In this document: positions 1,963 through 61,461 of the stretch, piece after piece
Layout of the letters: every line of letters starts with the position of its first letter
Numbering within the stretch: the first letter of the stretch is position 1
Source of the DNA: Hydractinia symbiolongicarpus
Lineage: Eukaryota > Cnidaria > Hydrozoa > Anthoathecata > Hydractiniidae
Assembly: GCF_029227915.1 (NCBI RefSeq)
Contig: NC_079878.1
Location: 7,688,001 to 7,752,000, forward strand
Length of the DNA stretch: 64,000 nt
Direction: 5' to 3'
Program-made: the position numbers and the translations under genes
Notes under the pieces: model-generated
What the model was told of the DNA's origin: nothing
Databases searched by the model: none
What the model saw: only the letters and a program-made list of their open reading frames with translations

Positions 1963-4076
1963 CAGTCGACGCTCGTTATCTCGAACTCCCAAGGGACCGA
2001 AAGAAAAGTTCGAGATAGCGAGCGTTCGAGATAGCGGAGGTTCGACATAACGAGCGTATTTCATGAAAAGTTTGAGATAACGAGTTTTTCGAAATTTTTT
2101 GAAATTTTCAGAAAAGGGCAAGGGTCAGTAGTTCGGTCATAAGTATCTGTGGGCAAGCTTTTAAAATTAAAATTCACCTGAATTAAGGGTACTTGAAGGA
2201 ACTGTTTGGTCAAGAAAGGGAAATGGATAATAAAGAAAACAGCATTTTGCGTACATGTATACTTATTGTTGATTACAATTACATACATTATTTTTGATCG
2301 AAAAAGCTCAAAATATTAGTTTGCTTCTTGTTTTTCATTTCACTTTTAAGAAACAAATCTTCAAAGCGAAGCAGGAGGCGTTGCATGTCATTTCCATCAT
2401 CAGTGAATAGACAAGCATTTTGTAAAGTCTCCACTGCAGTGTTTATTTCTGATTTTGTTGGCTTGCTCACTGGCTCATCAAACACCTCGATGACATCGGC
2501 ATTTTCATCATGCTCCTCGTCATTCTCATCTGTACTTGGCCGTACCGACTCAAGGATTTCTTCATCAGTCACGGGATTTTCAATTGTGGTCAAATCTTGG
2601 TCAATATCGACAACATCACGGGCCGAGAGATCAGCAAGAATAATGGTATCGTCAATGGCACGCAGTTGTGTGAGATCTTTCTCCAGTTGTTTAAATGGAT
2701 CATCAATATCATCAGTTGCATTCTGTTGAGCTTTCTTGGAAATCTTTGATTTCTTGAAGCAGTTTACGATGGTTTCTTTCTTCACTTTGCCCCACGACGA
2801 AACAAGTATTTGAAGAGCACGCAGAATTGAAACTTTTGAAAGATCTTTGTCTTTTTCTAGGTTTTGAATCATCATGTTGACCAATTTTTGGCGATAAAGA
2901 GACTTAAGACATCTTATGACACCTTGGTCCATCGGTTGTGACACAGAAGTTGTATTTGGAGGTAAGAAAATCAATTTAATGTTGGACAGTCCACCGACAT
3001 CAGGGTGAGCGGGACAATTATCGATGATCAAGACTATCTTTCGACCTTCTTTTAGAAACATTGCATTGATTTCTCGCACCCACTCTTCAAAAAGAGAGCT
3101 GTCCATCCAACTCTTCTTCTGCGCTCTGTACCTGCAGGGTAGGGTTGTTACATTTTTGAAGCACCTTGGTTTCCTCGATTTACCAATCACAAACATTGGT
3201 AGTTTATCTCCGACAGCATTGGCAGCTGCAAGCCCGGTAATTCGGACTTTGCTATTTTTACCCCCAGAGCATTTTTCGTATTTGTAGTGATACGTTTTAT
3301 TTGGCAAGCATTGGTAGAAGAGACCGAATTCGTCGGCATTGTAAATATCTTCTAGTTTGTAGTTAGTTAATAATGTTGGTAAAGTGGTTTCAAACCAAGA
3401 TGCTATCATATCAGGTTGAACAGAATTGCTTTCACCAACGACCGTCTTGAACGTTACATTGTGCCTGAAATAGAAAATAAAACAAATACCGACTTGTATA
3501 AAAGATTTATTGTTAACCTGTTCGTGCATTTTTTCGAATACGAATGTTCGAATTTCAATTCGAATGTTTTTAAAAATTCTTGTGTGAAGTTTTTCCTTAT
3601 TGGCTAGCCAAGTTGATATCGTGTTTTTAGGCACCCCGTACTTTTTAGCGATATCTTTATTTGGAATACCTTTTTCCAATTCTTTTAATGCTTGGCATTT
3701 TTCTGCCAAAGTTTTTACAACGAGCTTTCTTTTCGGTGGCATTCTGACAAAGGAAATCACAAAAAAAACATTGCAAAATCTACCTGTTTTACAATGGAAT
3801 GTCTTCTTTTTATTGCAACATTTTGTGACTTTAAAACAAGCAGTGCAAGGTCTTCTTTTTTCAAAATTCCTCTTTAAGAGTTCGAGATAACGAGCGTAAA
3901 TCAGTCCAAGGGACTGAGAAAAAAGTTTGAGATAGTGAAAGTTTGAGATAACGGAGGTTCGAGATACCGAAGATTTTTTTGCCTACTATTGCTTACAGAA
4001 CTCAAGGGACCGAAGAAAAAGTTCGAGATAGAGAAAGTTCGAGATAACGGAGGTTCGAGATAATGAGCGTCGACTG
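1963..4076 (-). mobile_element. pogo/Tigger-type DNA transposon with TIRs and TA target duplication
   Basis: The ends are near-perfect inverted repeats: CAGTCGACGCTCGTTATCTC at 1963 and its complement ending at 4076 with one mismatch. They are flanked by TA at 1961-1962 and 4077-4078, the duplication expected for Tc1/mariner-pogo elements. Both subterminal regions (about 1963-2095 and 3875-4076) carry several copies of a TTCGAGATAACG-type motif in alternating contexts, together with AAGGGACCGA. These may be transposase-binding iterons. The single long minus-strand frame at 2288-3742 encodes the transposase. The copy is about 2.1 kb, close to a full-length pogo element, with little terminal decay, so it looks relatively young. 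Confidence 0.85.
2288..3742 (-). CDS. pogo/Tigger transposase (DDE_1 family), internal part altered
   Basis: Nuclear transposase that would bind the element's inverted repeats and catalyse cut-and-paste. The likely start is the Met of MPPKRKLVVKTLAEK, six residues inside the longest frame. Residues 1-50 form a CENP-B/Psq-type helix-turn-helix (IPNKDIAKKYGVPKNTISTW). From about residue 100 onward the DDE_1 domain is seen: VVGESNSV, then YNADEFGLFY with the first Asp, VLIIDNCPAHP with the second Asp, and SQPMDQGVIRCLK with the third acidic residue. The C terminus is acidic and ends in a KKKQTNILSFF tail. About 40 unrelated AT-rich residues (RIFKNIRIEIRTFVFEK onward) sit where the second CENP-B DNA-binding domain is expected, just before RHNVTFKTVVGES. 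This suggests an internal deletion that kept frame, or an intron read through. DNA binding is probably impaired while the catalytic triad remains. Confidence 0.8.
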   Translation of the reverse strand: MPPKRKLVVKTLAEKCQALKELEKGIPNKDIAKKYGVPKNTISTWLANKEKLHTRIFKNIRIEIRTFVFEKMHEQVNNKSFIQVGICFIFYFRHNVTFKTVVGESNSVQPDMIASWFETTLPTLLTNYKLEDIYNADEFGLFYQCLPNKTYHYKYEKCSGGKNSKVRITGLAAANAVGDKLPMFVIGKSRKPRCFKNVTTLPCRYRAQKKSWMDSSLFEEWVREINAMFLKEGRKIVLIIDNCPAHPDVGGLSNIKLIFLPPNTTSVSQPMDQGVIRCLKSLYRQKLVNMMIQNLEKDKDLSKVSILRALQILVSSWGKVKKETIVNCFKKSKISKKAQQNATDDIDDPFKQLEKDLTQLRAIDDTIILADLSARDVVDIDQDLTTIENPVTDEEILESVRPSTDENDEEHDENADVIEVFDEPVSKPTKSEINTAVETLQNACLFTDDGNDMQRLLLRFEDLFLKSEMKNKKQTNILSFFDQK

Positions 4077-5272: not shown

Positions 5273-6775
5273 CTAAATATAGTATTGCTTCAATTTCTTT
5301 TTAAAAGTTACATAACATTTTTCTTTTCTAATATCTAATGGCAACTTGTTGTATGTATCAGCACCCATGCAATAAAAACCACTTTTTGCAATTTCTAATT
5401 TAACTTTTGTCAAGCGTAATGATAACTGCTTATTCCGTGAAACCCTTTTGTGATTCAATAACTCGAAATAACTGTTGAAGCTGCTGCACCTCTCTCCGTC
5501 AATACATTTACGAACTACGCAACACACGTTTCTTATTATCATACTTCTGATTAATGTAACGTTTGCATTTTTCGTGATATTTCTCGCTCTGTTGTCCAGA
5601 GACACAAGCCTTTTCTGTTGTGTATTTGTAAATTTAAGGTTGATGATACTGATAAACGTGATAAGAGGTAGTATCATCATGTTGTAAATAATAATAGCAT
5701 TGTTGTCATCAATTTGCGATCTCAATGCTGATAGGAGACGAAACCTTGTTGAAGCTTTCTTCTAGACTGTGTCAAAATTTACCTGCATAGATAGTTTTGA
5801 ATTCGGAGTCGAACCCAAATATTTATACTGGCTTGTCGTGTTGACTTCCACAAAATTGTAAAATAGCTTGAGCTTGTGGGATACTGAATTCAACTTTTTC
5901 CCAGTTCCGAATAACATTGCTACCGTTTTTCCTCTTTTTAAATTAATCACAAGATCATTATCGATCAGGTACTGTTCGATATTTTTTAATTCTGAGTTCA
6001 AAATATATTCGGTATAATTCACTTTGCTTCCAGCAATATCACTGTGTCGTCATCGAATTGGATAGCACGTGCTCTAATTAGCGAGGTCTCAAAATCATTG
6101 AATTAAAAATAAAAGCGGTCCTAAAATAGATCCCTGAGGGACTCCGCATTTTACATTCTCAGTGTTAGATCTGATGTTGTTAATAACCACCTGTTGTGTA
6201 CTGTTGAATAGGTAGTGGGTAAATCATTCTAACTCTTTGCCACAAATACCATATGCGCAAAGCTTTTCAAGAAAGATGCTATGTGAAACAGTGTCAAAAG
6301 CTTTCGACAAATCAATGAAGATTGCACCAACTAAATTTCCTTTATCAAGCTCTTTTCTGATGTTATCAGTAAATAACGTTGCAGCTATGTCCGTGGAGCT
6401 ACGTCTGCTGTAACCAAATTGATACCAATATAATAAATTATTATCTTCTAGATTGCTGATAAGTTGGCTATGAACTGCTTTCTCAAGTATTTTTGATAGG
6501 CTTGACAATATAGATATTGGTCGGTAGTTATTTGGTTCAGATGGTGATCCTGATTTAAAGATGGGAGTGATTAGTGCGTGTTTCCAATCTGATGGTACTT
6601 CTGAGTTGTCTAATGATAAGTTGATTAAATAACACAGTGGTTCAGCAATCGCAGATGCACAGTCCTTCAATAAAGCTGGTGGAAGATTATCCGAACCAGT
6701 TGACTTTTGACGCTTAAGCTTTTTAAGTTCTTTCCCAACAAATATGCGTGATACATTGTTAAATTTAAATTTCAT
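5273..6775 (-). pseudogene. LINE reverse transcriptase and C-terminal region, frameshifted
   Basis: Three frames make up one reverse transcriptase. At 6224-6775 are [46 protein letters not shown] and FIDLSKAFDTVSH (first catalytic Asp). At about 6030-6150, read in another frame, are GVPQGSILGPLLFLI and an AIQFDDDTVIL block that is the F/YxDD active site. At 5762-6022 is the thumb-side INLKRGKTVAML and YKYLGS. The C terminus (5273-5725) contains YFELLNHKRVSR and YNKLPLDIRK, typical of CR1-like LINEs. The frame changes near 6200 and 5750 show it is inactive. Confidence 0.75.
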
Positions 6776-7110
6776 ACATGTTCTTAAAGGTAAATGTTTT
6801 GGTTTGTTCTAGATAAAATCTTTTAGGTAAATAGATTTTAATTTTAACTGATGTGCCACGTTAGAGAAAAATAAACATAATGTATTTACTTTTTCGAATT
6901 TATAGGTAGTTGCAGTTGTATCATTAGTAACTTTCATCGTCGCTTTCCAATCTGCTGCTGCGTTTATCCTACGAGCTTTCTAAGGGCTTTATCTCTATCG
7001 ATCATAAGATATCTGATGTTGTTGTCAATCCAAGGGCAGAATTGACCCTTCACACTTTTCTCGATTATCGGCGCGTGTTTGTTAAATACATTAAGAAGTG
7101 TATTCTCCAG

Positions 7111-7917
7111 TTAAAGCCATGCTTCGTTAACATTTTTCATTTCGTACATACGACTCCAGTCGTGATGTCTAAGCTCCTCGTTCATATTGTCGTTGTTGTA
7201 CTTTCCGTAGTTCCTACTTTTTTCATTTTTCGGCGGTAACCTATCTCTCTTGAATTTACGCACAAAGCCAACCATGTCGTGTTCACTAATAGAAGTTGGT
7301 ATTACGTCATTGACATAAGTACTATCCGTGCAAGATGTTAAAATACAGTCAATTAAAGTTTTTGATGTTTCGGTTACTCTTGTCGCTTTAGTAATAATTT
7401 GTTTTAGTCCATTTAAGTTGAATACTTCCTTAATATCCTTATTATCATTTTCTTTCAACAAATCAACGTTTATGTCTCCCAAAAGATTCACTTCTTTTGA
7501 CTGAGACATAACAATAGATAACATATCGCTAAGGAATGTTTCAAAATTACGAGGTAGGTATTTCGAACCAGCCGGGAGTCGGTACAATGATCCAACAAGA
7601 AATGACTTAGAGTTTTTTTGAAAGATTTCAATCCAAATACACTGCAAGTCACGATGTTCTAAGTCAGATCTACGTTTCCATTTGATACGGTTGGAAATAT
7701 ACATGCCTATTCCTCCGCAAAGTCCAGTTTTCCTGTTCCGGGAGATAAAAGCATACCCCGGAATATGATAAAGGTTAGGATTCTCTGTGTACGCTTTCGT
7801 GTTTATATGCGTCTCGAATAAAGTTAATATGTTAATGTTTTTATGTTCGTTTAACAAAACTTTACCATGGTTTATATTCGCCAATAGTCCTCGAACATTC
7901 TGATGAAATATTTTCAT
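7111..7917 (-). pseudogene. LINE apurinic/apyrimidinic endonuclease domain (EEP family)
   Basis: A 268-residue open frame beginning MKIFHQNVRGLLANI. Family signatures are IFHQNVRG (metal-binding Asn), LFETHI (catalytic Glu), GGIGMYI, VGSLYRLP, VNLLGDINVDLL (catalytic Asp), LIDCILTS and ISEHDMVGF (catalytic His-containing block). All key positions seem retained. The enzyme would nick target DNA to prime reverse transcription. The frame is lost downstream, between 6776 and 7110, before the reverse transcriptase, so it is a fragment of a dead element. Confidence 0.8.
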
Positions 7918-8030
7918 ACCTCTTTTTCATAACAAATTATACAGTTCTTTCATATATTCAAGTCCAGGCTGAGTCTCAATGTCACAATGTAAACAAAAAC
8001 GTGCCATGATGGTGACAAATCTTTCAAAAT

Positions 8031-12300: not shown

Positions 12301-15300
12301 CAAAAGAATACAGCCCTTAAGCATCAGAATTGGGGGAGCGCTATAACACAAGAACTACTTATGCTTAGGTGACAAGACCTAGCATTCTTATAGAAAAGTC
12401 TAATACAAACATAAAAGAGGTAAAAAGTATACTTTATTTGAATTGATATCTAGAGGATTTTGAGACAAGTTTCAAAAATATTATTTAATAAAACATTGTT
12501 TGTTTCAAAATTAATTTATTTCAACAATCTATGAGACGTCTGTTTACAAACTATTTAATGGAATCATAGGAAGCAAAAACATTGTTTAAAACAGTAAAAT
12601 TGAGATCATTAAAAAAGATTAGATTCCTGTACATTTTAAGAAATGATATGATCGTTTCATTTCGTATAAAATGCAAAACGATACCAAAGGCTGTGAATTA
12701 ACTAATTAAAAAGCAATTAAACTTGTGAAATATAAACTTGTCTTTTTCTTAAGAAGTTGCTGTATTCATTCTAAAATAAGAGGAGGACTTACATGCCGTA
12801 TTTTATAACTAATGTGACTAGAAAACGTGCCTGAGAAGCTCTAAAGTTTCTGTATATCATTCTAAAATGACGAGAAAACACGTCCCTGCGTAGCTTTAAA
12901 GTTCCTTATATCATTCTAAAATGACAAAAAAATGTCCCTGCGTAGCTTTAAAGTTCCTTATATCATTCTAAAATGACAAAAAAATGTCCCTACGCAGCTT
13001 TAAAGTTCCCGTATGGCATTCTAAAATGGCAAGAAAACTTTCCTGCGAAAATTTAACGTTGCCGTATTTTATTCTAAAATGACGAGAAGACGTATCTTTT
13101 TTATATTGTTTTAGTTATTTTTTAACTTATTTTTCCGAAAGACAATTATAAATATATAAAGCTTAAATTAGAAAATCAAAAAAACGCTACTGAACGGAAC
13201 ATAGAGATATTCGCCATATTCCTTTAACAAATGACACATTTAAAATTTGATATAAAAAAGCTAAATAATTATAACCTTATTTCACTTAGGTGCTTTTTTT
13301 TTTCTCTCAATAACGATTTCCTTACTCTCTCTCTAAAACACGATTCTGGAGATAAATTTTTTTTTGTTGTTATTCTAATCTCTTTATATCTTTGCAATTA
13401 CATTAAGCGTATTGAAATGCTTTGCTTCTGGTAATGGAGCAGTATGACAGGTAGGTGTTATTGGCATGTATATTAAAACCTAGTGCCCAGGACCAAATTA
13501 ATAAATGATGTTAAAATCGGTAAAAAATTTTAAAATTAAGTTTGAATAATATTCTCTTCTTTTTTATATTTGCTACTTTTAAAAAACAGATGGCCACAAA
13601 AATAATAAGACAATGTAACAATATTCTTCTCATTACTGCAATTCATTTTATCATGCACACGTGAATGCTGGGATATAAATAGATAGCAAAATTCTATCCA
13701 CCTGTTAACGGACACGATTTTCGGTGGGCTCGTATTGAGACCAAAAGTGTTGAAAAAATAATTAGTTCACTAAAACTTAATAAATCTACAGGCTTGAACG
13801 GAATTGGTTCACGACTGCTAAAAGCAGGTTCGTCAGTTTTAAGTATTTATTTATCAATTCTTTTCAACAAATCTTTATTTACTGGTTATGTACCTAAATG
13901 TTGGAAGACTAAAAGGGTCTCGCCTATTTTTAAAAGTGGCAATAAAACAGATCCTACTAATTATCGGCCTATCTCCATTTTGCCAATTCCTATGAAAATT
14001 TTTGAAAAGTTAGTGCATGAGCAAATGTCTCATTTTATTTCTGAGCACAACTTCCTGAATGACAGACAGTCCGGATTTCGAAAACTCTTTTCCACAGAAA
14101 CTGCAGTAGTCGATGTCTCTAATTTTATTCTTACTGAGCTCGACCAACATAACTTTGTGCTGTGCTCATTGACCTTAAAAAAGCTTTTGACACTGTTGAT
14201 CATAAAATTTTTGTTAAAAAAACTATGGTGTTTTGGCATCAGAGATCTGCCTTTGACTGGTTCGAGTCCTACTTAACGGGCCGAATGCAGCTGACTCTTG
14301 TAAACGACACAGGATCAGATCTGCTTCATGAAGACGCTTTTGGGGTGCCGCAGGGATCTGTGTTGGGGCCCCTGCTCTTTCTTTTGTATATTGATGACTT
14401 AAAATCTGTCATCAATTCAAACTACCACCATCTATATGCAGATGATACAATAATTATTTCGTCTCATAAAAACTTGGATACCCTTGTCTCCCAGGTCGAG
14501 TTAGAACTTTCGCAAGTCGACCTCTGGCTGAATAATAACAAAATGACTATTAATACGGACAAAACTGAAACAATCTTTTTCGGCAACCACAGCCAGTTAA
14601 AAAAAGTTGAGAACAAAACTATCAACTATATGGGTATTCCTTTGAAGAGGAGCGAAAAAGTTAAATATCTTGGGGTAACATTTGATCAAAAAATGCAATG
14701 GGAAAAGCACATTAATGACATAAATAGAAAAATACTAATTAAATATTCTAAAATTAGAACCATTGCATCCTGTTTAACACCTCACACAAAAAACCTTTTA
14801 ATTAATGCACTTGTCATGCCATATTTCAACTACTGCTCCTTGGCATGGGCTTGTGCCACCCAAGGTAGATTGGGAAAACTAGAAAAACGATTAAAATGTG
14901 TCCGTACCTTTCTTGGGAAAGAGAGGGAATATTCAATGAATAATTTACCCATCAAAAACGATGCCATATTAGTTTTCAAAGCCATGAATCACATTGCTCC
15001 TGATTACATGCGCTCAAAATTCCTTTTGACAAAAAACTGTCATAATCATCAAACAAGAGGAGCTTCAAAAAACAGGTTCACACTTCCCTTGGTCAACACG
15101 GAATTTAGCAAAAAAGCCTTCCCATTTAGAGCTGCAAAAGTGTGGAATAATCTTCCAGACCAAGTGACCTGTGATGGAAGTCTGCTTTCGTTTAAGACTT
15201 CCATCTCTAATGTATTTGGCAAATTCTAATGGAGATCACTTTTTAATTTTTGTTTTTTATTCTTTTTCTTTTAAATTTTCACAGATTATAAATGTTACTA

Positions 15301-21400: not shown

Positions 21401-24400
21401 TAAAAAGTTTTTGTTTGCCTCTACTTCTACATTCTTGGTTTCATATCTACAATGATGTTTGATCAATGTGTAGTGGCTATAGTAATTCTGGACTTTTCGC
21501 ATTTGTAAACATGTAATGTATACAAGTGTAGTAAACACCTGAAACAACCACAAAGTGTAAGCTTGTAGCAACCCTTTCTCTGCACCTTTGCTATCTCTGC
21601 GCCTTTGCTATCTCTGTCTTGGGTTGCATATTTAAAATATGAGTTAATGAACAGGTAAAGGCTATAGTAATTCTGGACTTTTCGCATTTGTAAACATGTA
21701 CACAAGTGTAGTAAACACTTGAAACAACCACAAGCTTTGTCAGTGTTGTAAACACCAAAAAAATTCTTTACTACTTACATGAAGCTCATTACCTATGCAT
21801 TTACTAATGATTTAGTGCAATGCATTAAAACATGAGCACACATAAAACTCTTGGAAGTTTGAGTTGCTGTTTTGTTATAATGCCAATTTTCATGCCAAGA
21901 AGACAAATATTAAGGAAATAAAGTATAAATAACAAGCCTAGTTGCAAAACAGAGTGTTGCCTTCCAATGATGAGTTGTGCAAGAGTATCAAGTAGTAAAC
22001 ACTGAAAATAATATGATGTTATTTATATTTTAATACTTATGTAAGGCTCATTACCTATGTGTGTACTAACAATGTAGTAATATGCATTAAAACCTGAGCA
22101 CACATAAAAAATCTTGGGAGTTTGAGTTGCTGTTTCATTATAACTGCAATTGTCATGCCCAGAAGACAAGTATTGAAAGACATAACAAGTAATGCAATGT
22201 CATTAAAAAAAAAACTGATTATTGCCTATCGATGATGAGTTGTGCAGGGGTATTAAACATTTGAACATGTACAAGTGAATTAGCATATTTGATTCCTATC
22301 TACATGTGGTAGGTTAAGGACTTAAATTTACTAATTAAAATTGCACAATCTGAGTGGTTTGTCAGTTTATTATTTAAAGAAACCTTATACAGGTAACAGG
22401 CAAATGAGATGTACAATTCTTTGCTTAAGAATAATAGAAACAGTCTCATTTTGTTTGGAGATATTTTGAAGATGCAATGTGTATCTTCACTTGCATAGAA
22501 ATTTTTACACAATTTTAAGAAAATATTGCAGGTTTAGTGATCCTACGAAATCTTTGTAAATGTTTGATTCTTCAATGAAGTAAATTTCATGGATCATACA
22601 ACAAGCTAAAATGTAATTGTACAGACATATGTATTTAATTTCTATCTTTAGAATGAAAATCTCAGTGGCACATTGGGAAGCTTGTACAATATTCTCAAAA
22701 TGCAACAAGACATTCACCCACAGCTTATCAATTTAAATGGGAAAATTGATTTGTTGCTTTCACATGTAAGTCATCAAAAGAAATTTAATGAATTACTTAA
22801 ATGACAATGTAGTTTTAAAAACCTGGTGTATTTTTTTCATAATAAATAACAATTTAATTTTAAATTTTGTATGTGACAGTAAACCTCCTTGCACTATAAG
22901 CTAATACGCGTTCCTGTGTAAATATGATCTAGGAACGAAAAGCCTTCTGAAGTGTTCGCTATTAAATCTGTAGTTTTGTAAGCATGTCGATATAACCAAA
23001 TGATGATTGCATTAAATATAGGAATTGCCGTCTGAACGACAATTGAAGATAATGTAAATGCTGATGGTTAATCTTACACAGGTGTTTTAAACCCTAAGCA
23101 GTAGGACTAAACAACTGTGTATAGTACTTAACCGACAGTAAGGTGTTCAAAATATAGATGGTCATATATAAGAAAATAAATCCTCAAAACTAGTCATTTC
23201 GGTAATATCAATTTTGTAAAAGGACTTCCTTTTATTCTTTTTCTATGATTTTGTACCCATTGTTTTAAAGAAAAGGACTAAGAAATGCTTTTAATTTACG
23301 TTTTTAGAACAAACTGAATTGCACTATAAGCTAATAGGCATTCCATCAATGTTTGCTTGTTCGTTCCCATGTGCAGATATGATCCAGGAAGGAAAAATAC
23401 AGGCCTACAAAATTAAGGTAGTTTTGTTGGAAGCCTCCTGACATACCAGTTATAAAATCTGTGCTTTAAGTAAGCATGTAAATATACCAAGTGATGATTG
23501 CATTAAATATAGGAATTGCCGTCTGAACGACAATTGAAGATAATGTAAAAGCTGATGGTTAATCCTAAAAGGGCGAATAGTTTTCAAATTTTGGAAAAAA
23601 ATTTTACTAGCAAGGTGGTGTCAAAATAAGGTTGGTGAAATGAATAAAGACATCTGAGAAAGCCTATTCATGTTAATGACCAATTTTCAAAAAAATAGGG
23701 AAAATTTATTTGCAACTGAATCTTCACAATAAATCTGGTTGCACTATAAGCTAATAGGCATTCCATCGATGTTTGCTTGTTCGTTCCCATGTGCAGATAT
23801 GAACTAGGAAGGAAAAATACAGGCCTACACAGTCGAGGTAGTTATGTTGGAAGCCTCCTGACATATTCTGTGTAAAATCTGTAATTAAATCAAGCATATG
23901 GAATTAGCCAAGTGATGATTGCATTAAATATAGGAATTGCCGTCTGAACGACAATTGAAGATAATGTAAAAGCTGATAGTTTATCCTAAAAGGGTGAATG
24001 GTTTTTAAATTTTGGGAAAAAATTTTTACTGGCAAGGTTGTGTTAAAAAAAAGGTTGGTGAAATGAATAAAACCATCTGAAAAAGCCTATTCATGTTAAT
24101 GACCAATTTTCAAAAAAATACGGAAAATTTACTTGCAACTGAATCTTCACAATAAATCTGGTTGCACTATAAGCTAATAGGCATTCCATCAATGTTTGCT
24201 TGTTCGTTCCCATGTGCAGATATGAACTAGGAAGGAAAAATACAGGCCTACACAATCGTGGTAGTTATGTTGGAAGCCTCCTGACATATTCTGTGTAAAA
24301 TCTGTAATTAAATCAAGCATATGGAATTAGCCAAGTGATGATTGCATTAAATATAGGAATTGCCGTCTGAACGACAATTGAAGATAATGTAAAAGCTGAT

Positions 24401-27319
24401 GGTTTATCCTAAAAGGGTGAATGGTTTTTGAATTTTGGGAAAAAAATTTTACTGGCAAGGTTGTGTTCAAGAAAAGGTTACCATCTGAAAAAACCTATTC
24501 ATGTTAATGACCAATTTTCAAAAAAATACGGAAAATTTACTTGCAACTGAATCTTCACAATAAATCTGGTTGCACTATAAGCTAATAGGCATTCCATCGA
24601 TGTTTGCTTGTTCGTTCCCATGTGCAGATATGAACTAGGAAGGAAAAATACAGGCCTACACAGTCGAGGTAGTTATGTTGGAAGCCTCCTGACATATTCT
24701 GTGTAAAATCTGTAATTAAATCAAGCATATGGAATTAGCCAAGTGATGATTGCATTAAATATAGGAATTGCCGTCTGAACGACAATTGAAGATAATGTAA
24801 AAGCTGATGGTTTATCCTAAAAGGGTGAATGGTTTTTAAATTTTGGGAAAAAATTTTTACTGGCAAGGTTGTGTTAAAAAAAAGGTTGGTGAAATGAATA
24901 AAACCATCTGAAAAAGCCTATTCATGTTAATGACCAATTTTCAAAAAAATACGGAAAATTTACTTGCAACTGAATCTTCACAATAAATCTGGTTGCACTA
25001 TAAGCTAATAGGCATTCCATCAATGTTTGCTTGTTCGTTCCCATGTGCAGATATGAACTAGGAAGGAAAAATATAGGCCTACACAGTCGAGGTAGTTATG
25101 TTGGAAGCCTCCTGACATATTCTGTGTAAAATCTGTAATTAAATCAAGCATATGGAATTAGCCAAGTGATGATTGCATTAAATATAGGAATTGCCGTCTG
25201 AACGATATTTGAAGATAATGTAAGAGCTGATGGTTAATCCTAAAAGACTTTTAAAAGAATTTATTTAATATCTTCTTTGCTAAAAGTGTTAGTTTTGTTA
25301 AGGTATAAAAAATATGCTGTGAACTTCATTAAGAGCAAACATGGCTTCTCAGCTGCTTGATTTTTTAAGTTGGACAATTTTAAAAATTGTGACTTCTGAA
25401 ATTGGTTTAGTTTTTTACTTTTCACAGTAAACAGGATTGCACTATAAGCTAATAGGCATTCTATCAATGTTTGCTTGTTCGTTCCCACGTGCAGATATAA
25501 TTTAGGAAGGAAAAATACATGCCTACAAAATCAAGGTAGCTTTGTTGGAAGCCTCCTGACATTTTTCAGCATAAAATCTGTAGTAACGTGGATATAACCA
25601 AGTAATGATTCAATTAAAAATAGGAATTGCCGTCTGAACGACAAATGAAGATAATGTTGAACCTGATGGTTAATCCTAAAAAAGGTGTTTTAAACCCTAA
25701 CTTTGAACCCTAAGACCAAACAAACCCATATTAAATAAGTAAAAAGACCCTGACAAAGCATATTTTATTGCACTGTTGCTAATGGTCACTATAATCAGTG
25801 AGTGGACATTCGTTCTCTTGTGCAAATAAAAACTCAATGAAGAAGTTTAGCAGGTGGCTTTTTTGTAGTTAGTTTGTTGGAACACTTCATACAAAATTAT
25901 TTTAAAAATGCTGTGATCAACTTGACTGAGTGATGATTGTAGATTTAATAGGAATTGCCGTCTGAACGACAATTGAAGCTAGCATACAACTGACAGTCTT
26001 GACTTGTTGATTTATAAGTTTATGAACTTATAACTTAAAAATAATTCTTTTAATTGCCCGAAAATCATTCACCAGACCATGCGTACGAATTTGTAATTTA
26101 TGCGATTGACTTTGCTACTTGACCCTGACACTCAATAACTCTATGGATTTTGGCCTGATTAAGTTCTGCTTCAACGGGTATATTTGAATGGAGGTTTTGG
26201 ATATAAGACACAGAATTTTTTCTGAAAATTATTTCTAGGTTTAAAAGATGGGTAAATTTACCTTATAAGTAATACAGGAAAAACTGCTTGAACTTTTGTT
26301 TCCACAACAAAACGCTAAAAACTTTTGTTTGTTCGTATAGGCAAGCAGCAGCAAACGAATATCAAGCGAAGACGATGAAAGTACAAATCCTACTGTCGTT
26401 TTTAATGATAGTAAGTACATCGTTTCTATTTTCTTCTTCCAACTACTTTCTGCAGGTTTTCCAGTTACATAGTAACGCTGACATTTTAAAAAAAATTCAA
26501 ATTGTTGTTAGGGTTCAAACTTTCTGAACTGTGAAAAGATACATTTTTGCTATTAATGGGTAATCCAAGTAAAAATGTAAACTTTCGGTTAAATGTCTTG
26601 TGAAATCAGAAAAATAGAAGAAATTCTAGTTAAAAATTGCCGGGAATGTTAGACATATAATTAGCCGATATTGAGTGGACACTATTTTTGGAAGTTCGCT
26701 GTTGTTCTGTTAAGTTGTGGGGAAATTGTCGTTAATGTCGATTATGACTGTTTTACAGTGTCTGTTTAAAAACATCTTTTGTTACAACGTTATTACTAAA
26801 GCCTGCAAAAAGAAAACTTATTTTTTGCAAAAAATGGTTATGATTCCTCATATTTGTTTTTTAGTTACTGCCAATAACATGTTAAATTTTTATGCTGTAA
26901 AGCTATTCATTATTTCAGAATTTAAAACATTCCAATTGCTTACTAATAAGCAAGCATCTTTTCCAGGTTGCAATTTCTTAATTCTTCTCAATTTTAAACA
27001 GCTCAAAACTATCAAATCTCATCAACCTGTTGCATGGTCTTCCTTTTAAAATGCATAAATTTTTTATATGGATACAGAAATAATTTGTTATGCACTTTGA
27101 AAATTTCATAAGTCTCCTTAAATAAATGGCAACCCTTTAGATTCCGACGACGAGACTGAAGAATTATTCGGGAAGCTGATTGAATCAGAAGAAGAGATAG
27201 AAGTGGACGAGGAAGAAAATTCACCAGACGAAGACGAAGAGGAATCTGACGATACGAATGACGATGAAATCGATGACAATGAAAATGAACAAAGTGAAAA
27301 CGAAAGTGATCGATATTAA
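9319..27319 (+). CDS. WDR43: WDR43 / UTP5-like small-subunit processome protein, complete 17-exon gene
   Basis: WDR43 (yeast Utp5) is a nucleolar WD40 protein of the t-UTP/UTP-A complex, needed for pre-rRNA transcription and 18S processing. Exons by splice sites and phase: 9319-9519, 9797-9943, 11677-11798, 11993-12113, 17156-17292, 17618-17720, 18308-18372, 18440-18500, 19083-19193, 19443-19682, 19836-19897, 20122-20296, 20380-20411, 21323-21386, 22652-22765, 26341-26410, 27141-27319. All phases join and give 667 residues, near the human length. WD40 repeats fill exons 1-9 ([46 protein letters not shown]). Exons 11-15 form the Utp12-like C-terminal domain ([47 protein letters not shown]). 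The tail is very acidic. A basic [10 protein letters not shown] stretch in exon 2 may be a nuclear or nucleolar signal. Intron 15 holds a snoRNA array; intron 4 holds a LINE and other repeats. Exon 11 has a duplicate at 19966. Confidence 0.93.
9944..11676. other. WDR43 intron 2, nothing recognised
   Basis: A 1.7-kb intron with no recognised repeat, RNA gene or conserved coding stretch. Confidence 0.5.
12768..13095. repeat. Minisatellite, period about 52-54 bp, in WDR43 intron 4
   Basis: About six tandem units, each beginning TTCTAAAATGAC and continuing with a GTCCCTGCGTAGCTTTAAAG core. Unit starts are near 12769, 12861, 12916, 12967, 13018 and 13071. The two central copies are nearly identical and the outer ones are diverged. 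Confidence 0.8.
13794..15229 (+). pseudogene. LINE reverse transcriptase with one frameshift
   Basis: Two overlapping frames (13794-14276 and 14162-15229) belong to one protein. The break lies near 14155-14160, between DQHNFV and [10 protein letters not shown], and looks like a single-base loss. Otherwise the domain from fingers to thumb is well kept, with catalytic Asp in LKKAFDTVD and YADD. The 5' part including the endonuclease is absent. Compared with the LINE at 5-8 kb it is a different subfamily and better preserved. Confidence 0.85.
15424..15477. repeat. (ATT)n microsatellite, LINE 3' tail
   Basis: About 17 uninterrupted ATT triplets following the LINE 3' end. Confidence 0.95.
15765..15990. 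repeat. Degenerate simple repeat of a GAAACGATT-like motif
   Basis: More than ten copies of GAAACGAT or close variants occur over about 220 bp of intron 4, irregularly spaced. No function is visible. Confidence 0.5.
16370..17009 (+). mobile_element. Non-autonomous Helitron-like element, copy A (WDR43 intron 4)
   Basis: This sequence is repeated at 39.8-40.3 kb (inverted) and 41.1-41.7 kb. Its right end has a hairpin (GTGGATTTTTCCAC, 16980-16993), then GGGCTTTATCGACTAG ending at 17009 and followed by T. A 3' hairpin shortly before CTRR with insertion before T is the Helitron 3' signature. It encodes no obvious protein; the frame at 16651-16980 is only a by-product of the shared sequence. The left end is approximate. 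Confidence 0.6.
19768..20016 (+). repeat. Tandem duplication of WDR43 exon 11 with its acceptor
   Basis: A unit of about 125-130 bp, covering the end of intron 10, the TATATAG acceptor and the exon encoding [17 protein letters not shown], occurs twice. The first exon copy is 19836-19897 and the second starts at 19966. Copy 1 has a donor (AAGTAAAT) whose phase joins exon 12. Copy 2 reads [17 protein letters not shown] but then runs on to a stop at about 20037-20039 without a matching donor. Copy 2 is probably a non-functional duplicate exon. Confidence 0.8.
20690..20957 (+). mobile_element. 3' end of a LINE in WDR43 intron 13
   Basis: One frame reads [20 protein letters not shown], then [23 protein letters not shown] and a stop. 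This is the C-terminal end found in several animal LINE groups (the RPKKTW...PTHA pattern). It is followed by a short (GAT)n tail at about 20943-20956. Only the last about 270 bp are present. Confidence 0.65.
21462..22310. repeat. Diverged tandem and dispersed duplications in WDR43 intron 14
   Basis: A block beginning GGCTATAGTAATTCTGGACT occurs at 21475 and again at 21659. A second block of about 260 bp (CATTACCTATG, then GAGCACACATAAAA and GTTTGAGTTGCTGTTT) occurs at about 21790-22010 and 22050-22275. Because this is an intron of a snoRNA host gene, non-coding RNA was considered, but no paired box motifs were found. Confidence 0.6.
22994..23069 (+). ncRNA. Box C/D snoRNA, copy 1 (SNORD53/92-like)
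   Basis: Terminal stem AACCA/TGGTT encloses an ATGATGA C box and a CTGA D box. Internally it has the invariant TAGGAATTGCCGTCTGAA with a CTGA D' box, then a TGAAGAT C'-like box. The stretch before D' would be the guide. The matching H/ACA segment upstream (from 22890) lacks its 3' hairpin, so this unit keeps only the C/D RNA. Confidence 0.8.
23320..23446 (+). ncRNA. H/ACA snoRNA, copy 2
   Basis: Two hairpins with hinge and tail. The 5' hairpin is closed by TGCAC/GTGCA with an inner stem AAGC/GCTT and AGGCATT/AATGTTT. The H box is ATATGA (23377-23382). The 3' hairpin is closed by AGGAAGG/CCTCCT with CTAC/GTAG at the top. ACA lies at 23441-23443, three bases before the end. The loop between lower and upper stems would be the pseudouridylation pocket; the target is not known. 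Confidence 0.75.
23485..23561 (+). ncRNA. Box C/D snoRNA, copy 2
   Basis: ACCA/TGGT terminal stem, C box GTGATGA (23491), D' CTGA after the GGAATTGCCGT guide, C'-like TGAAGAT, D box CTGA (23552-23555). Confidence 0.85.
23740..23866 (+). ncRNA. H/ACA snoRNA, copy 3
   Basis: Same two-hairpin design as copy 2 with H box ATATGA and ACA at 23861-23863. Differences from copy 2 fall mainly in loops (for example GATCCAGG to GAACTAGG). Confidence 0.75.
23906..23981 (+). ncRNA. Box C/D snoRNA, copy 3
   Basis: C box GTGATGA, invariant guide and D', D box CTGA (23973-23976). The terminal stem AGCCA/TAGTT is weakened by one mismatch, the only copy so affected among the similar units. Confidence 0.75.
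24163..24289 (+). ncRNA. H/ACA snoRNA, copy 4
   Basis: Two hairpins, H box ATATGA and ACA at 24284-24286. The apical loop has CAATCGTGG where copies 3, 5 and 6 have CAGTCGAGG. Confidence 0.75.
24329..24404 (+). ncRNA. Box C/D snoRNA, copy 4
   Basis: Terminal stem AGCCA/TGGTT (with a G-U pair), C box GTGATGA, invariant guide and D', D box CTGA (24396-24399). Confidence 0.85.
24571..24697 (+). ncRNA. H/ACA snoRNA, copy 5
   Basis: Nearly identical to copy 3. ACA at 24692-24694. Confidence 0.75.
24737..24812 (+). ncRNA. Box C/D snoRNA, copy 5
   Basis: Terminal stem AGCCA/TGGTT, C box GTGATGA, guide and D' unchanged, D box CTGA (24804-24807). Confidence 0.85.
24994..25120 (+). ncRNA. H/ACA snoRNA, copy 6
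   Basis: Same design as copy 5 with one loop change (ATATAGGCC for ATACAGGCC). ACA at 25115-25117. Confidence 0.75.
25160..25235 (+). ncRNA. Box C/D snoRNA, copy 6
   Basis: C box GTGATGA, guide and D' intact. The linker after D' is changed (CGATATTTGAAG for CGACAATTGAAG). D box CTGA (25227-25230) and TGGTT closing strand. Confidence 0.8.
25438..25564 (+). ncRNA. H/ACA snoRNA, copy 7
   Basis: 5' hairpin closed by TGCAC/GTGCA, H box ATATAA, 3' hairpin AGGAAGG/CCTCCT, ACA at 25559-25561. The changes in the H box keep the ANANNA consensus. Confidence 0.75.
25596..25671 (+). ncRNA. Box C/D snoRNA, copy 7
   Basis: Terminal stem AACCA/TGGTT, guide and D' intact and D box CTGA (25663-25666). The C box is GTAATGA, a departure from consensus that may weaken this copy. 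Confidence 0.7.
25768..25896 (+). ncRNA. H/ACA snoRNA, copy 8, diverged
   Basis: The sequence differs widely from copies 2-7 but the fold is kept. The 5' hairpin is closed by TTGCAC/GTGCAA, followed by an AAATAA hinge. The 3' hairpin is closed by ATGAAG/CTTCAT, and ACA lies at 25891-25893 exactly three bases before the likely end. Retention of the pairing with different bases supports it as a real RNA. Confidence 0.75.
25924..25998 (+). ncRNA. Box C/D snoRNA, copy 8, diverged
   Basis: Terminal stem GACTG/CAGTC is fully paired although both strands differ from the other copies. C box GTGATGA, invariant guide and D', D box CTGA (25990-25993). Confidence 0.87.
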
Positions 27320-59900: not shown

Positions 59901-61461
59901 TGTAAAGGTAAAAAAAAGACATCAGGCCGCCTAGTCAAGTCAACCCGGTTAACCTTCATAGTAGCAGCCCCTTTTTCTTTATTTCAATATTAGCTAAGGT
60001 GCTTCTTAATTCGATATCATTGTCACTATTACGACAACTACTGATTAATTTAGTAATGCAGGTTAAAATTACAAATAAGGTTAAAGCTAATGTGGACCTA
60101 CAACAAGAGCAAAATTAAATAAAATGCTGAAATAATGAAAAACAAGTCATGTAAGAAATATAGAAGACTAGTCGTTAGCACATGCAAAAATCCACGTGTT
60201 CGCATGTCGCAGCTAAGCTACCATTTTTGCGTGACAGACAGATAGACAGACGGATTGACCTAGCATAGCATCTTCAGTTCCTAATAGAACTGTTATCAAT
60301 GAGGGGCCTGCGAAGGAGGTCCTAATGCATTGCTCCTATTTGAGCTACGGAAGACGTTCAAGCCCAACAGCCGCTTAACTAGAGAAAGGATAAAAAAAAG
60401 ATATCAAACCTATTCTCATAATTAATGTTAAGCAGAAATTATCGATTTACACTTTATAGTCTCTGCCATAACTAGGCTGGGATTTGAACCCAAGACCTTC
60501 CGCACTGGAGGCGAACGCTCTAGCACGTAGCCACCAGCCACCGCCAGAGCGCTCTTTCACAAAGCCACCACTCGGACTAATGGGTTGGTTTGTATTACCC
60601 GCGGATTTCTAGCAGTTGTGAATCTCTTTTTTATTACAATGTTTGTTGTCTAGGTATGCAAACATCACCATACACCTATTACTTAAAGATTGTTTACTTT
60701 CGTGAATCAGACGCTGGAACTTATCGTTGCAGTGCAGCGTCAGGAAGTGTCACTAAGTTTGCTGAATTGGTTGTAAAAGCTGATCCAAGTAAGAGATTTT
60801 TGTTTTTTGTGAAGATTATTCTGCTTTAGATAATCTGATATACACTAAAGAGCTGAGAGTTTATTACAGAATTTTATTTATCGAAAACCTTTTGTTTGCG
60901 ATTTGGTTGTCCAAATATTTTATTGTCTCAATATTTTGTTATCTGAATGTCTGCATATTTTGTTGTTTAAACATTCATTTTCTCTTGTCTCAATATTTTG
61001 TTGTCTAACTGTGCATCTCGCTACTTGCGGTGCCGTTTTGCGTGACAGACAGACGCATACGGGTATTATAATATAGACTAGTCGTTAACCCATGGAAAAA
61101 TCCATGGGGGGCGCCCGTCTTTTATATATCCCACTCTGTGTTTCCGTAGCAAAAAAACGCACGAACAGACAGACGGAATATGGCTATTATTACAGAGATT
61201 TAAGAAACACTCTCCTCTTAATTTAGCGAGAAAATTTAAAAATTGAATAAGGCTTTTAAAATACGAACCCGATGAACTGTGTGACTCGTTCCCTCGATGA
61301 ATACAATATAAAATACTTGTAGCAATGACCATTACTTTAAAGGTACCTTTTAAACGTTTTTTTCTTCCAAAGGTTTAGTGGCTGTGTTTTGTGTGGTTCT
61401 GTTATTTATTGTTGATATTCAGTTTTGTGCTTTTATCTTAGCGATCATTACCGCTTTTTGA
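56996..61461 (+). CDS. Small membrane-anchored Ig V-like domain protein, 4 exons
   Basis: Exons: 56996-57047, 57905-58117, 60654-60788, 61373-61461; all introns are phase 1 and the joined frame gives 162 residues. Exon 1 is a signal peptide (MKLFLLLYLFGATVV). Exons 2-3 form one Ig V-type domain: VFLKCTFDI with the first Cys, SIFWERNGK with the core Trp, then YTYYLKIVYFRESDAGTYRC with the second Cys and the DxGTYxC motif. Exon 4 encodes a hydrophobic segment (LVAVFCVVLLFIVD onward) and stops at once, so there would be no cytoplasmic tail. Exon 4 rests on phase, a pyrimidine-rich acceptor and hydrophobicity; alternative downstream exons outside the window are possible. Likely a surface recognition or adhesion protein. 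Its neighbour is another single-pass receptor. Confidence 0.68.
57528..57812. repeat. AACGTT-rich palindromic element in the Ig gene intron 1
   Basis: About 15 copies of AACGTTG/CAACGTT and GACGT(C/T) in 280 bp, with a repeated GTTACTGCAACGTTA-type block and a TTATTCTAACGTCGTTCGAA block. Palindromic at many scales. It ends TTGCGGTGTTTACTGGG, a terminus reminiscent of small MITEs. Confidence 0.65.
58515..59058. mobile_element. Tigger/pogo-type non-autonomous element
   Basis: Starts CAGTAGACGTCCGTTAATTC after TA and ends with GAATTAACGGACACCTG, an imperfect inverted repeat. Both ends carry repeated TTAATTCGAAC-type motifs, similar in design to the larger pogo element at 1.96 kb. No intact transposase; the minus-strand frame at 58657-58881 may be a remnant. 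TA is seen only on the left. Confidence 0.6.
60168..60275 (-). mobile_element. Mini-Helitron, minus strand
   Basis: Read on the minus strand: CCGTCTGTCTATCTGTCACG, GCAAAAATGGTAGCTTAGC, a hairpin CACGTGGATTTTTGCATGTG and an end CTAACGACTAG at 60168 before T. The 5' end is degenerate and its position approximate. Confidence 0.5.
60290..60552 (-). repeat. tRNA-derived SINE-like sequence
   Basis: The minus strand shows an A-box-like GGCTACGTGCTAGAG (60519-60533) and a perfect B box GGGTTCAAATCCC (60479-60491), separated by about 27 bp as in a tRNA gene, so RNA polymerase III could start here. Downstream it continues into a non-tRNA body with CCGTAGCTCAAATAGGAGC, a second tRNA-like motif. It lies in intron 2 of the Ig gene. 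It does not fold as a complete tRNA by eye, so SINE is preferred. Confidence 0.55.
60905..61015. repeat. Degenerate tandem repeat of GTCTCAATATTTTGTTGTCT
   Basis: About six copies of a roughly 18-bp unit with variants, next to Helitron 5' sequence. Confidence 0.55.
61010..61077 (-). mobile_element. Helitron 5'-end fragment
   Basis: The minus strand begins TCTATATTATAATACCCGTA at 61077 and matches the 51.9-kb element through GTAGCGAGATGCAC, then is lost in the tandem repeat. It directly abuts the CTAG end of the next element. Confidence 0.6.
61078..61198 (-). mobile_element. Mini-Helitron, 121 bp, complete
   Basis: On the minus strand it begins TCTCTGTAATAATAGCC after A, and ends with the hairpin CCATGGATTTTTCCATGG, then GTTAACGACTAG before T. 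Both termini and the A/T insertion site fit Helitron rules. It lies in intron 3 of the Ig gene model. Confidence 0.75.

Follow-up and report, generated by a model that had tools for sequence, protein, structure and literature searches.

What does an animal intron gain by carrying the same two guide RNA genes over and over, and how would so many RNAs be taken out of it? The question is raised by one intron of WDR43 in the hydrozoan Hydractinia symbiolongicarpus, which lies in the window analysed here, that is, the whole stretch of 64,000 nucleotides of the 36-Mb contig NC_079878.1 (assembly GCF_029227915.1, positions 7,688,001 to 7,752,000 of the forward strand). Coordinates are counted from its first letter. 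An initial annotation had proposed that this intron holds tandem pairs of H/ACA and C/D snoRNA genes, and the proposal stands: sub-threshold Rfam matches, the detection of the divergent eighth unit, the changes in the C/D stem, selective conservation and target complementarity all speak for it. Directly seen in the DNA are the anatomy of the genes, their selective conservation, complementarity in register and the lack of a second genome match to the patterns tested. At the sequence level, the tandem snoRNA array is real.

The host gene is WDR43, which takes part in ribosome assembly: a search with its exon translations, joined by hand after the exon limits had been set by eye, has human WDR43 (PDB) as its best match, with E=1.7e-38 against 6.1e-20 for the next WD protein. 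The host intron (22766..26340, plus strand, 3575 nt, phase 0) was delimited by its GTAAGT...TAG splice sites and by the flanking open frames, which were read directly. Frame reading and the WDR43 match place the upstream exon at 22652..22765 (5' edge approximate) and the downstream one at 26341..26409 (3' edge approximate), both on the plus strand. The snoRNA array occupies this one single intron, on the sense strand of WDR43. As chicken WDR43 also hosts C/D RNAs, which PMC2653536 lists as of HBII-316 and U53 types, the gene can be regarded as a recurrent snoRNA home. In its surroundings, the neighbouring CDC16 protein is 98% identical to one public sequence and has its best named relatives in Clytia (59%) and Hydra (56%), both hydrozoans, and three frames named by eye from their translations, one of transposase type and two of reverse-transcriptase type, are found at 2288-3982 (minus strand), 5273-7926 (minus strand) and 13683-15229 (plus strand), the last of these transposon-like frames sitting within a WDR43 intron. 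Separately, the WDR43 intron preceding that of the array contains a SNORD94-like candidate (22226-22357, plus strand) that scores 27 bits where the threshold is 60, at E=0.0061 for a search of 12 kb; a GUGCAGGGGUA stretch is kept in it, as are boxes C and D.

Eight units, here u1 to u8, follow one another head to tail on the plus strand, starting at 22889, 23319, 23739, 24162, 24570, 24993, 25437 and 25768, with 331-444 nt between unit starts. Every unit terminates in a box C/D gene of 75-76 nt, located at 22994..23069 (u1), 23485..23560 (u2, outermost stem pair non-standard), 23906..23981 (u3, a single non-standard stem pair), 24329..24404 (u4), 24737..24812 (u5), 25160..25235 (u6), 25596..25671 (u7, where alignment places a box C altered to TAATGAT) and 25924..25998 (u8, divergent, stem GACTG/CAGTC); the irregular pairs of u2 and u3 come from the stem test described below. 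An H/ACA gene of 128 nt (about 129 nt in u8) lies upstream of the C/D gene in seven of the eight units, and the linker between the two measures about 30-39 nt in u2-u8. By fold and alignment, the H/ACA genes extend over 23319..23446 (u2), 23739..23866 (u3), 24162..24289 (u4), 24570..24697 (u5, same sequence as that of u3), 24993..25120 (u6) and 25437..25564 (u7). That of u8 (25768..25896) is divergent with an unchanged hairpin-1 pocket, and was recognised by a model built from other copies, by its own fold and by a joint target test. Unit u1 retains a remnant at 22889..22955, with the upper stem of hairpin 1 mostly lost. The counts of the initial annotation, C/D genes in all eight units and H/ACA genes in seven, are borne out.

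The same annotation had noticed a stretch that does not vary among the units, and here too the observation is sound, since the 17-mer AGGAATTGCCGTCTGAA is present in 8/8 and the spacers of the old copies are no longer alignable. This 17-mer occurs eight times in the window and eight times in the 481-Mb assembly (76 contigs), always in the array, with a reversed control of 0, and in the alignment the T preceding it is likewise present in 8/8. The D' guide with its D' box (TAGGAATTGCCGTCTGA in u1, at 23019..23035, plus strand, from the alignment and the genome count) starts at 23510, 23931, 24354, 24762, 25185, 25621 and 25949 in u2-u8. A DNA search for the unit gave eight matches, all within the array, and a sequence model of the C/D gene, searched against the window, found only its own eight source copies.

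In a permissive Rfam search, all eight C/D genes matched snoR77Y (35.9-48 bits, E from 6.7e-7 to 8.3e-4 in 12 kb) and SNORD49 (30-35.4 bits, E from 4e-5 to 1.1e-3 in 12 kb), u1 giving 48 and 35.4 bits and u8 giving 35.9 and 30 bits, although eight related copies are not eight independent matches. The curated scores are 52 bits for snoR77Y and 37 bits for SNORD49; because no copy attains them (best 48 and 35.4, respectively), the search at curated thresholds was empty in the array, and its only match was a tRNA elsewhere in the window (tRNA-like, 60469-60539, minus strand, barely above threshold with 33 bits against 29). The covariance-model scan that had been suggested as a check was therefore consistent below threshold in 8/8 C/D genes but gave nothing at the curated level. 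As for anatomy, boxes D and D' and the terminal stem are present in 8/8, box C is intact in 7/8 and C' is degenerate. In the terminal stem, 94.3% of cells are paired over the seven distinct rows, a percentage attained by 4/500 shuffles; three of its five pairs are altered on both sides, with a covariation score attained by 3/500 shuffles, and slid registers score lower. The count of further pair types for this stem shows no excess (500/500 shuffles). Since all three two-sided changes are confined to u8, the covariation represents few events. The idea that terminal stems change on both strands together, and so testify to selection on the RNA, survives in part: the C/D stem changes are paired, but with one divergent copy the evidence is thinner than had been implied; the hairpin-1 stem TTGCAC/GTGCAA differs on one side only; and the hairpin-2 stem of u8, though changed on both sides, is not aligned with the other copies. 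The consistent sub-threshold matches, the stem changes, conservation and complementarity together support the predicted identity of these genes as box C/D.

The copies differ in age. Units u3, u4 and u5 are nearly identical over their full length and u6 has their RNAs but not their whole spacer; u1, u2, u7 and u8 are the older copies. With one difference in 423 sites between u3 and u5, the array represents about five lineages rather than eight independent copies. The homogeneous centre and divergent edges suggest that it grew by unequal exchange. Pairwise comparison of u1, u2, u4, u7 and u8 comprised ten pairs (six for the H/ACA gene, u1 being without one). Downstream spacers were within 2.5 sd of shuffled identity in 9/10 pairs, the exception being u2-u4 (0.83), but in the nine pairs that involve u1, u7 or u8 the C/D genes retain 71-96% identity, and in the five of those nine with an H/ACA gene, the latter retains 65-92% against 52-53% for shuffled sequences. 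Between the C/D genes of u1 and u8, the D' guide is identical at 14/14 positions and boxes D' and D at 4/4, against 3/10 for the spacer from box C to the guide and 5/11 for the D-side spacer; their terminal stems share 4/10 letters with the pairing still intact. Because of the 5/11 identity on the D side, the guide adjoining box D is taken as non-functional.

For the D' guide two rRNA targets can be proposed. On 18S GCGGUAAUUCC, the guide UAGGAAUUGCCGU forms 11 contiguous pairs, two of them G.U, at -17.5 kcal/mol, and the U placed five bases from D' is itself in a G.U pair. We take this U to be the 18S Um site of snR77/snoR77Y/HBII-135, with which we also equate SNORD65; the 18S site motif used, as a 17-mer, has 19 exact copies in the genome of Hydractinia itself. 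On 28S CGGCUCUUCCUA, read from the organism's own rDNA, the same guide forms 4+7 pairs around two mismatches with C-G at the site, at -14.8 kcal/mol (-15.8 with two extra guide bases), and the candidate 2'-O-methylation position would be the C of CGGCUCUUCC, a SNORD49-type site. As a predicted target, 18S GCGGUAAUUCC fits better than 28S CGGCUCUUCCUA. The guide is weaker than snoR77Y on 18S (-18.9 kcal/mol) and weaker than the SNORD49 consensus guide on 28S (-18.0 kcal/mol), and in this sense it is intermediate. It shares with snR77/snoR77Y the layout and the D' guide GGAAUU-CCG, but an A to G change gives the G.U at the modified base, and here the C/D gene comes as eight tandem copies with an H/ACA partner. 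With SNORD49 (28S Cm, chicken 3911) it shares the guide UAGGAA-UGCCGUC and similar letters downstream of D', but a G to U change takes the 28S mismatches from one to two and weakens the pairing accordingly. In the genome, a pattern of box C plus either type of D' guide had seven matches, all in the array (reversed control 0), u7 escaping because of its altered box C; the D-side form of the pattern had none (reversed control 1). Since both patterns are strict, they could miss a second guide that has diverged.

The H/ACA RNA was approached through a model built from u2, u3, u4, u6 and u7. It detects the u8 copy (E=2.4e-4) and the remnant in u1 (E=5.4e-4), whereas the next-best matches have E 0.99 and 1.8; its match to u8 ends at 25863 with the second hairpin misplaced. 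Seven of the eight units, u1 being the exception, show the order hairpin-H box-hairpin-ACA and have a pocket 14-16 nt ahead of a box; in u2 the hairpin-1 pocket lies 15 nt before ATATGA (H box), and hairpin 2 closes with ACA. In the consensus fold, 4/32 pairs change on both sides and 10/32 are broken in one sequence, by letters of u8 (covariation term -0.24), so covariation speaks only weakly for an H/ACA RNA. The eight hairpins folded have modest z-scores (-1.3 to -3.3), and hairpin 2 of u8 folds alone but misfits the consensus alignment. Among H/ACA families, the sole listing of the permissive Rfam search was SNORA19 on u8, with 22.4 bits (threshold 80) and E=6. The initial annotation had reported hairpin loops free of the UGAG CAB box, which calls for a qualification in u8: a TGAG read by eye adjoins the loop of its first H/ACA hairpin (25799-25802, plus strand), and a CAB-like reading of it is possible.

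Hairpin 1 has a candidate target in the organism's own 28S, GGGAACG-U-GAGC (GGGAACGUGAGC), on which u2 scores 11 and u8 10.5 at the same U. This site was spotted by eye before the test, in which pockets were allowed only 13-16 nt ahead of the H box and 954 readable nt of own rRNA were covered; the joint score of u2 and u8 was reached by 0/600 Markov sequences of 954 nt and by 3/600 of 5600 nt. When the H-box limit is lifted, u2 and u8 each score 11.5 in human 18S, each at a place of its own, and the 28S site alone is high in both. In the own 28S, the target U and the SNORD49-type C are 65 nt apart, and chicken C3911 (U49) and psi3976 (snR37/ACA10) are given the same distance in PMC2653536. Published guides of the snR37/ACA10 site also use the 5' hairpin, with 4+7 nt in the chicken entry (PMC2653536) and with box H in the Neurospora one (PMC2780460). 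Because of the spacing and of the 5' hairpin, the predicted target of hairpin 1 is the snR37/ACA10 28S site. The pocket of the u2 5' hairpin reaches the same 28S uridine as snR37/ACA10 (psi, yeast 2944) through 7+4 pairs, but the H/ACA RNA of the array lacks a sequence-family match. Hairpin 2 retains letters of the TTGTTGGAA or TATGTTGGAA type, with TGTTGGAA in 7/7; no convincing target for it was found in human 18S, the readable 3' part of own 28S or the 5' part of own 18S, nor among human U1, U2, U4, U5 and U6 snRNAs. As a separate observation on the rDNA, a 28S 3' motif has 54 exact copies on both strands, widely spaced over G000:C1:32.6-39.5 Mb. In one example (L024:7173-8260), some 470 readable nt unlike rRNA give way abruptly, at ATAACTGGC, to recognisable 28S; an insertion could account for this, as could a repeat derived from rDNA.

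We consider it very probable that the locus as a whole is best explained by a duplicated snoRNA pair whose members become separate snoRNPs, guide rRNA modification and are repeated for dosage. An ancestral pair, H/ACA then C/D, would have been multiplied to eight units in the WDR43 intron by unequal exchange. The host intron would be transcribed and spliced, and trimming would free the RNAs as separate snoRNPs, the inner copies presumably being released by cuts between RNAs; in seven spacer stretches no cleavage hairpins were seen (folding z -0.56 to 1.51). The C/D RNA (about 76 nt) would direct 2'-O-methylation at the 18S site of yeast snR77 and may additionally act at the 28S site of vertebrate SNORD49, and in the H/ACA RNA (about 128 nt) hairpin 1 would direct pseudouridylation of 28S at the position served by yeast snR37/human ACA10. 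In a yeast table (PMC8307265), the DC-A site is listed for snR77 (Um578) and the PTC for snR37 (psi2944), so the modifications would fall near the decoding and peptidyl-transferase centres, and the array would increase guide dosage.

Other readings were weighed against this one. Each H/ACA and C/D pair could stay joined as a composite particle like the two-domain scaRNAs, an option that the initial annotation had left standing and that we hold improbable. The fixed order and orientation, the short linkers of u2-u8 and linker identities above those of shuffled sequences for u2-u4 (0.69 vs 0.54) and u2-u7 (0.66 vs 0.47) would fit it, but the linkers are not conserved against u8, all four comparisons being at shuffled identity (0.40-0.55 vs 0.39-0.52), each RNA has separate stems and the H/ACA RNA its own ACA box, the sole supported H/ACA target is rRNA, and the C/D gene of u1 persists beside a ruined H/ACA. 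Alternatively, the intron might mainly yield long RNAs with snoRNA ends, of the sno-lncRNA type, with internal snoRNAs included. Introns with two snoRNAs can yield such RNAs according to PMC11028025, a related lnc-snoRNA is reported from human SNORD49A/B in one SNHG29 intron (PMC9622897), and with eight units trimming from the ends would be expected to release the outer ends only; the unconserved spacers of the old copies argue against this, and we judge it unlikely.

An account that overlaps with our own and is compatible with it, passive tandem expansion with one or two functional units and the others decaying or neutral, deserves more weight, though we doubt it. The lost H/ACA of u1, the altered box C of u7 and the non-standard stem pairs of u2 and u3 agree with decay, and u3-u6 are too similar to reveal selection, but the guide is constant in 8/8, even in the most divergent copies, though adjacent positions have changed. 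An assembly artefact or a non-RNA satellite repeat is very hard to sustain: the near identity of u3 and u5 could make the exact number of middle copies an assembly matter, but the strong differences among u1, u2, u7 and u8 outside their RNAs are unlike stutter, and a satellite would not selectively retain guides, boxes and stems. The separate-snoRNP reading of a duplicated pair is the one we retain.

Multiple snoRNA genes lie here in one host intron on its sense strand, an arrangement known as an intronic cluster in rice (PMC2656528) and Drosophila (PMC2780460), and mixed C/D and H/ACA clusters are recorded for plants and trypanosomatids (PMC2780460). In animals, one snoRNA per intron predominates according to PMC11028025. 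The initial annotation was fair in calling the array unusual for an animal, but these Drosophila, plant and trypanosomatid precedents temper the statement. Those clusters resemble the present one in having several snoRNAs per intron, or both classes per transcript, and differ from it in that the present intron, an animal one, repeats a single mixed pair eight times. The SNORD115/116 and SNORD113/114 arrays, as described in PMC11028025, are also local amplifications of C/D genes, but their hosts are repeated introns of lncRNA genes and their C/D RNAs are orphans; the present array has a protein gene as host, is contained in a single intron and combines two classes, with likely rRNA guides. Among the matches listed in mostly non-subscription literature, no title concerned this array or any cnidarian mixed intronic array, and none stated a link between SNORD49 and SNORD65 guides. 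Intronic and mixed clusters are already known, but an eightfold mixed pair in one animal intron is unusual, as is the hybrid guide.

The Um site of snR77, snoR77Y and HBII-135 is tabulated as one 18S position, 578 in yeast and 575 in Neurospora (PMC8307265, PMC2780460). A single chicken transcript carries the two vertebrate guide types in its introns 4 and 2 (PMC2653536), and a drawing of human SNHG29 includes SNORD65 and SNORD49A/B (PMC9622897). The hybrid guide is the most interesting feature of the locus, as vertebrates use two RNAs, from one host gene, for both sites. As a conjecture with rather less than even chances, the C/D RNA could be a dual-target guide near the common ancestor of SNORD65/snR77 and SNORD49, acting on 18S through a G.U and on 28S through mismatched pairing; vertebrates would later have shared out the two sites between two RNAs that still have the same host gene, and the eightfold array would offset weak pairing while co-delivering an ACA10-type guide acting 65 nt from the 28S site.

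The array makes it possible to test compactly, in an animal, the release of many snoRNAs from one intron, as under the usual one-per-intron rule the inner copies would be difficult to free. It may also represent a state between two guide families, and the order in which their targets split would be testable at three rRNA positions.
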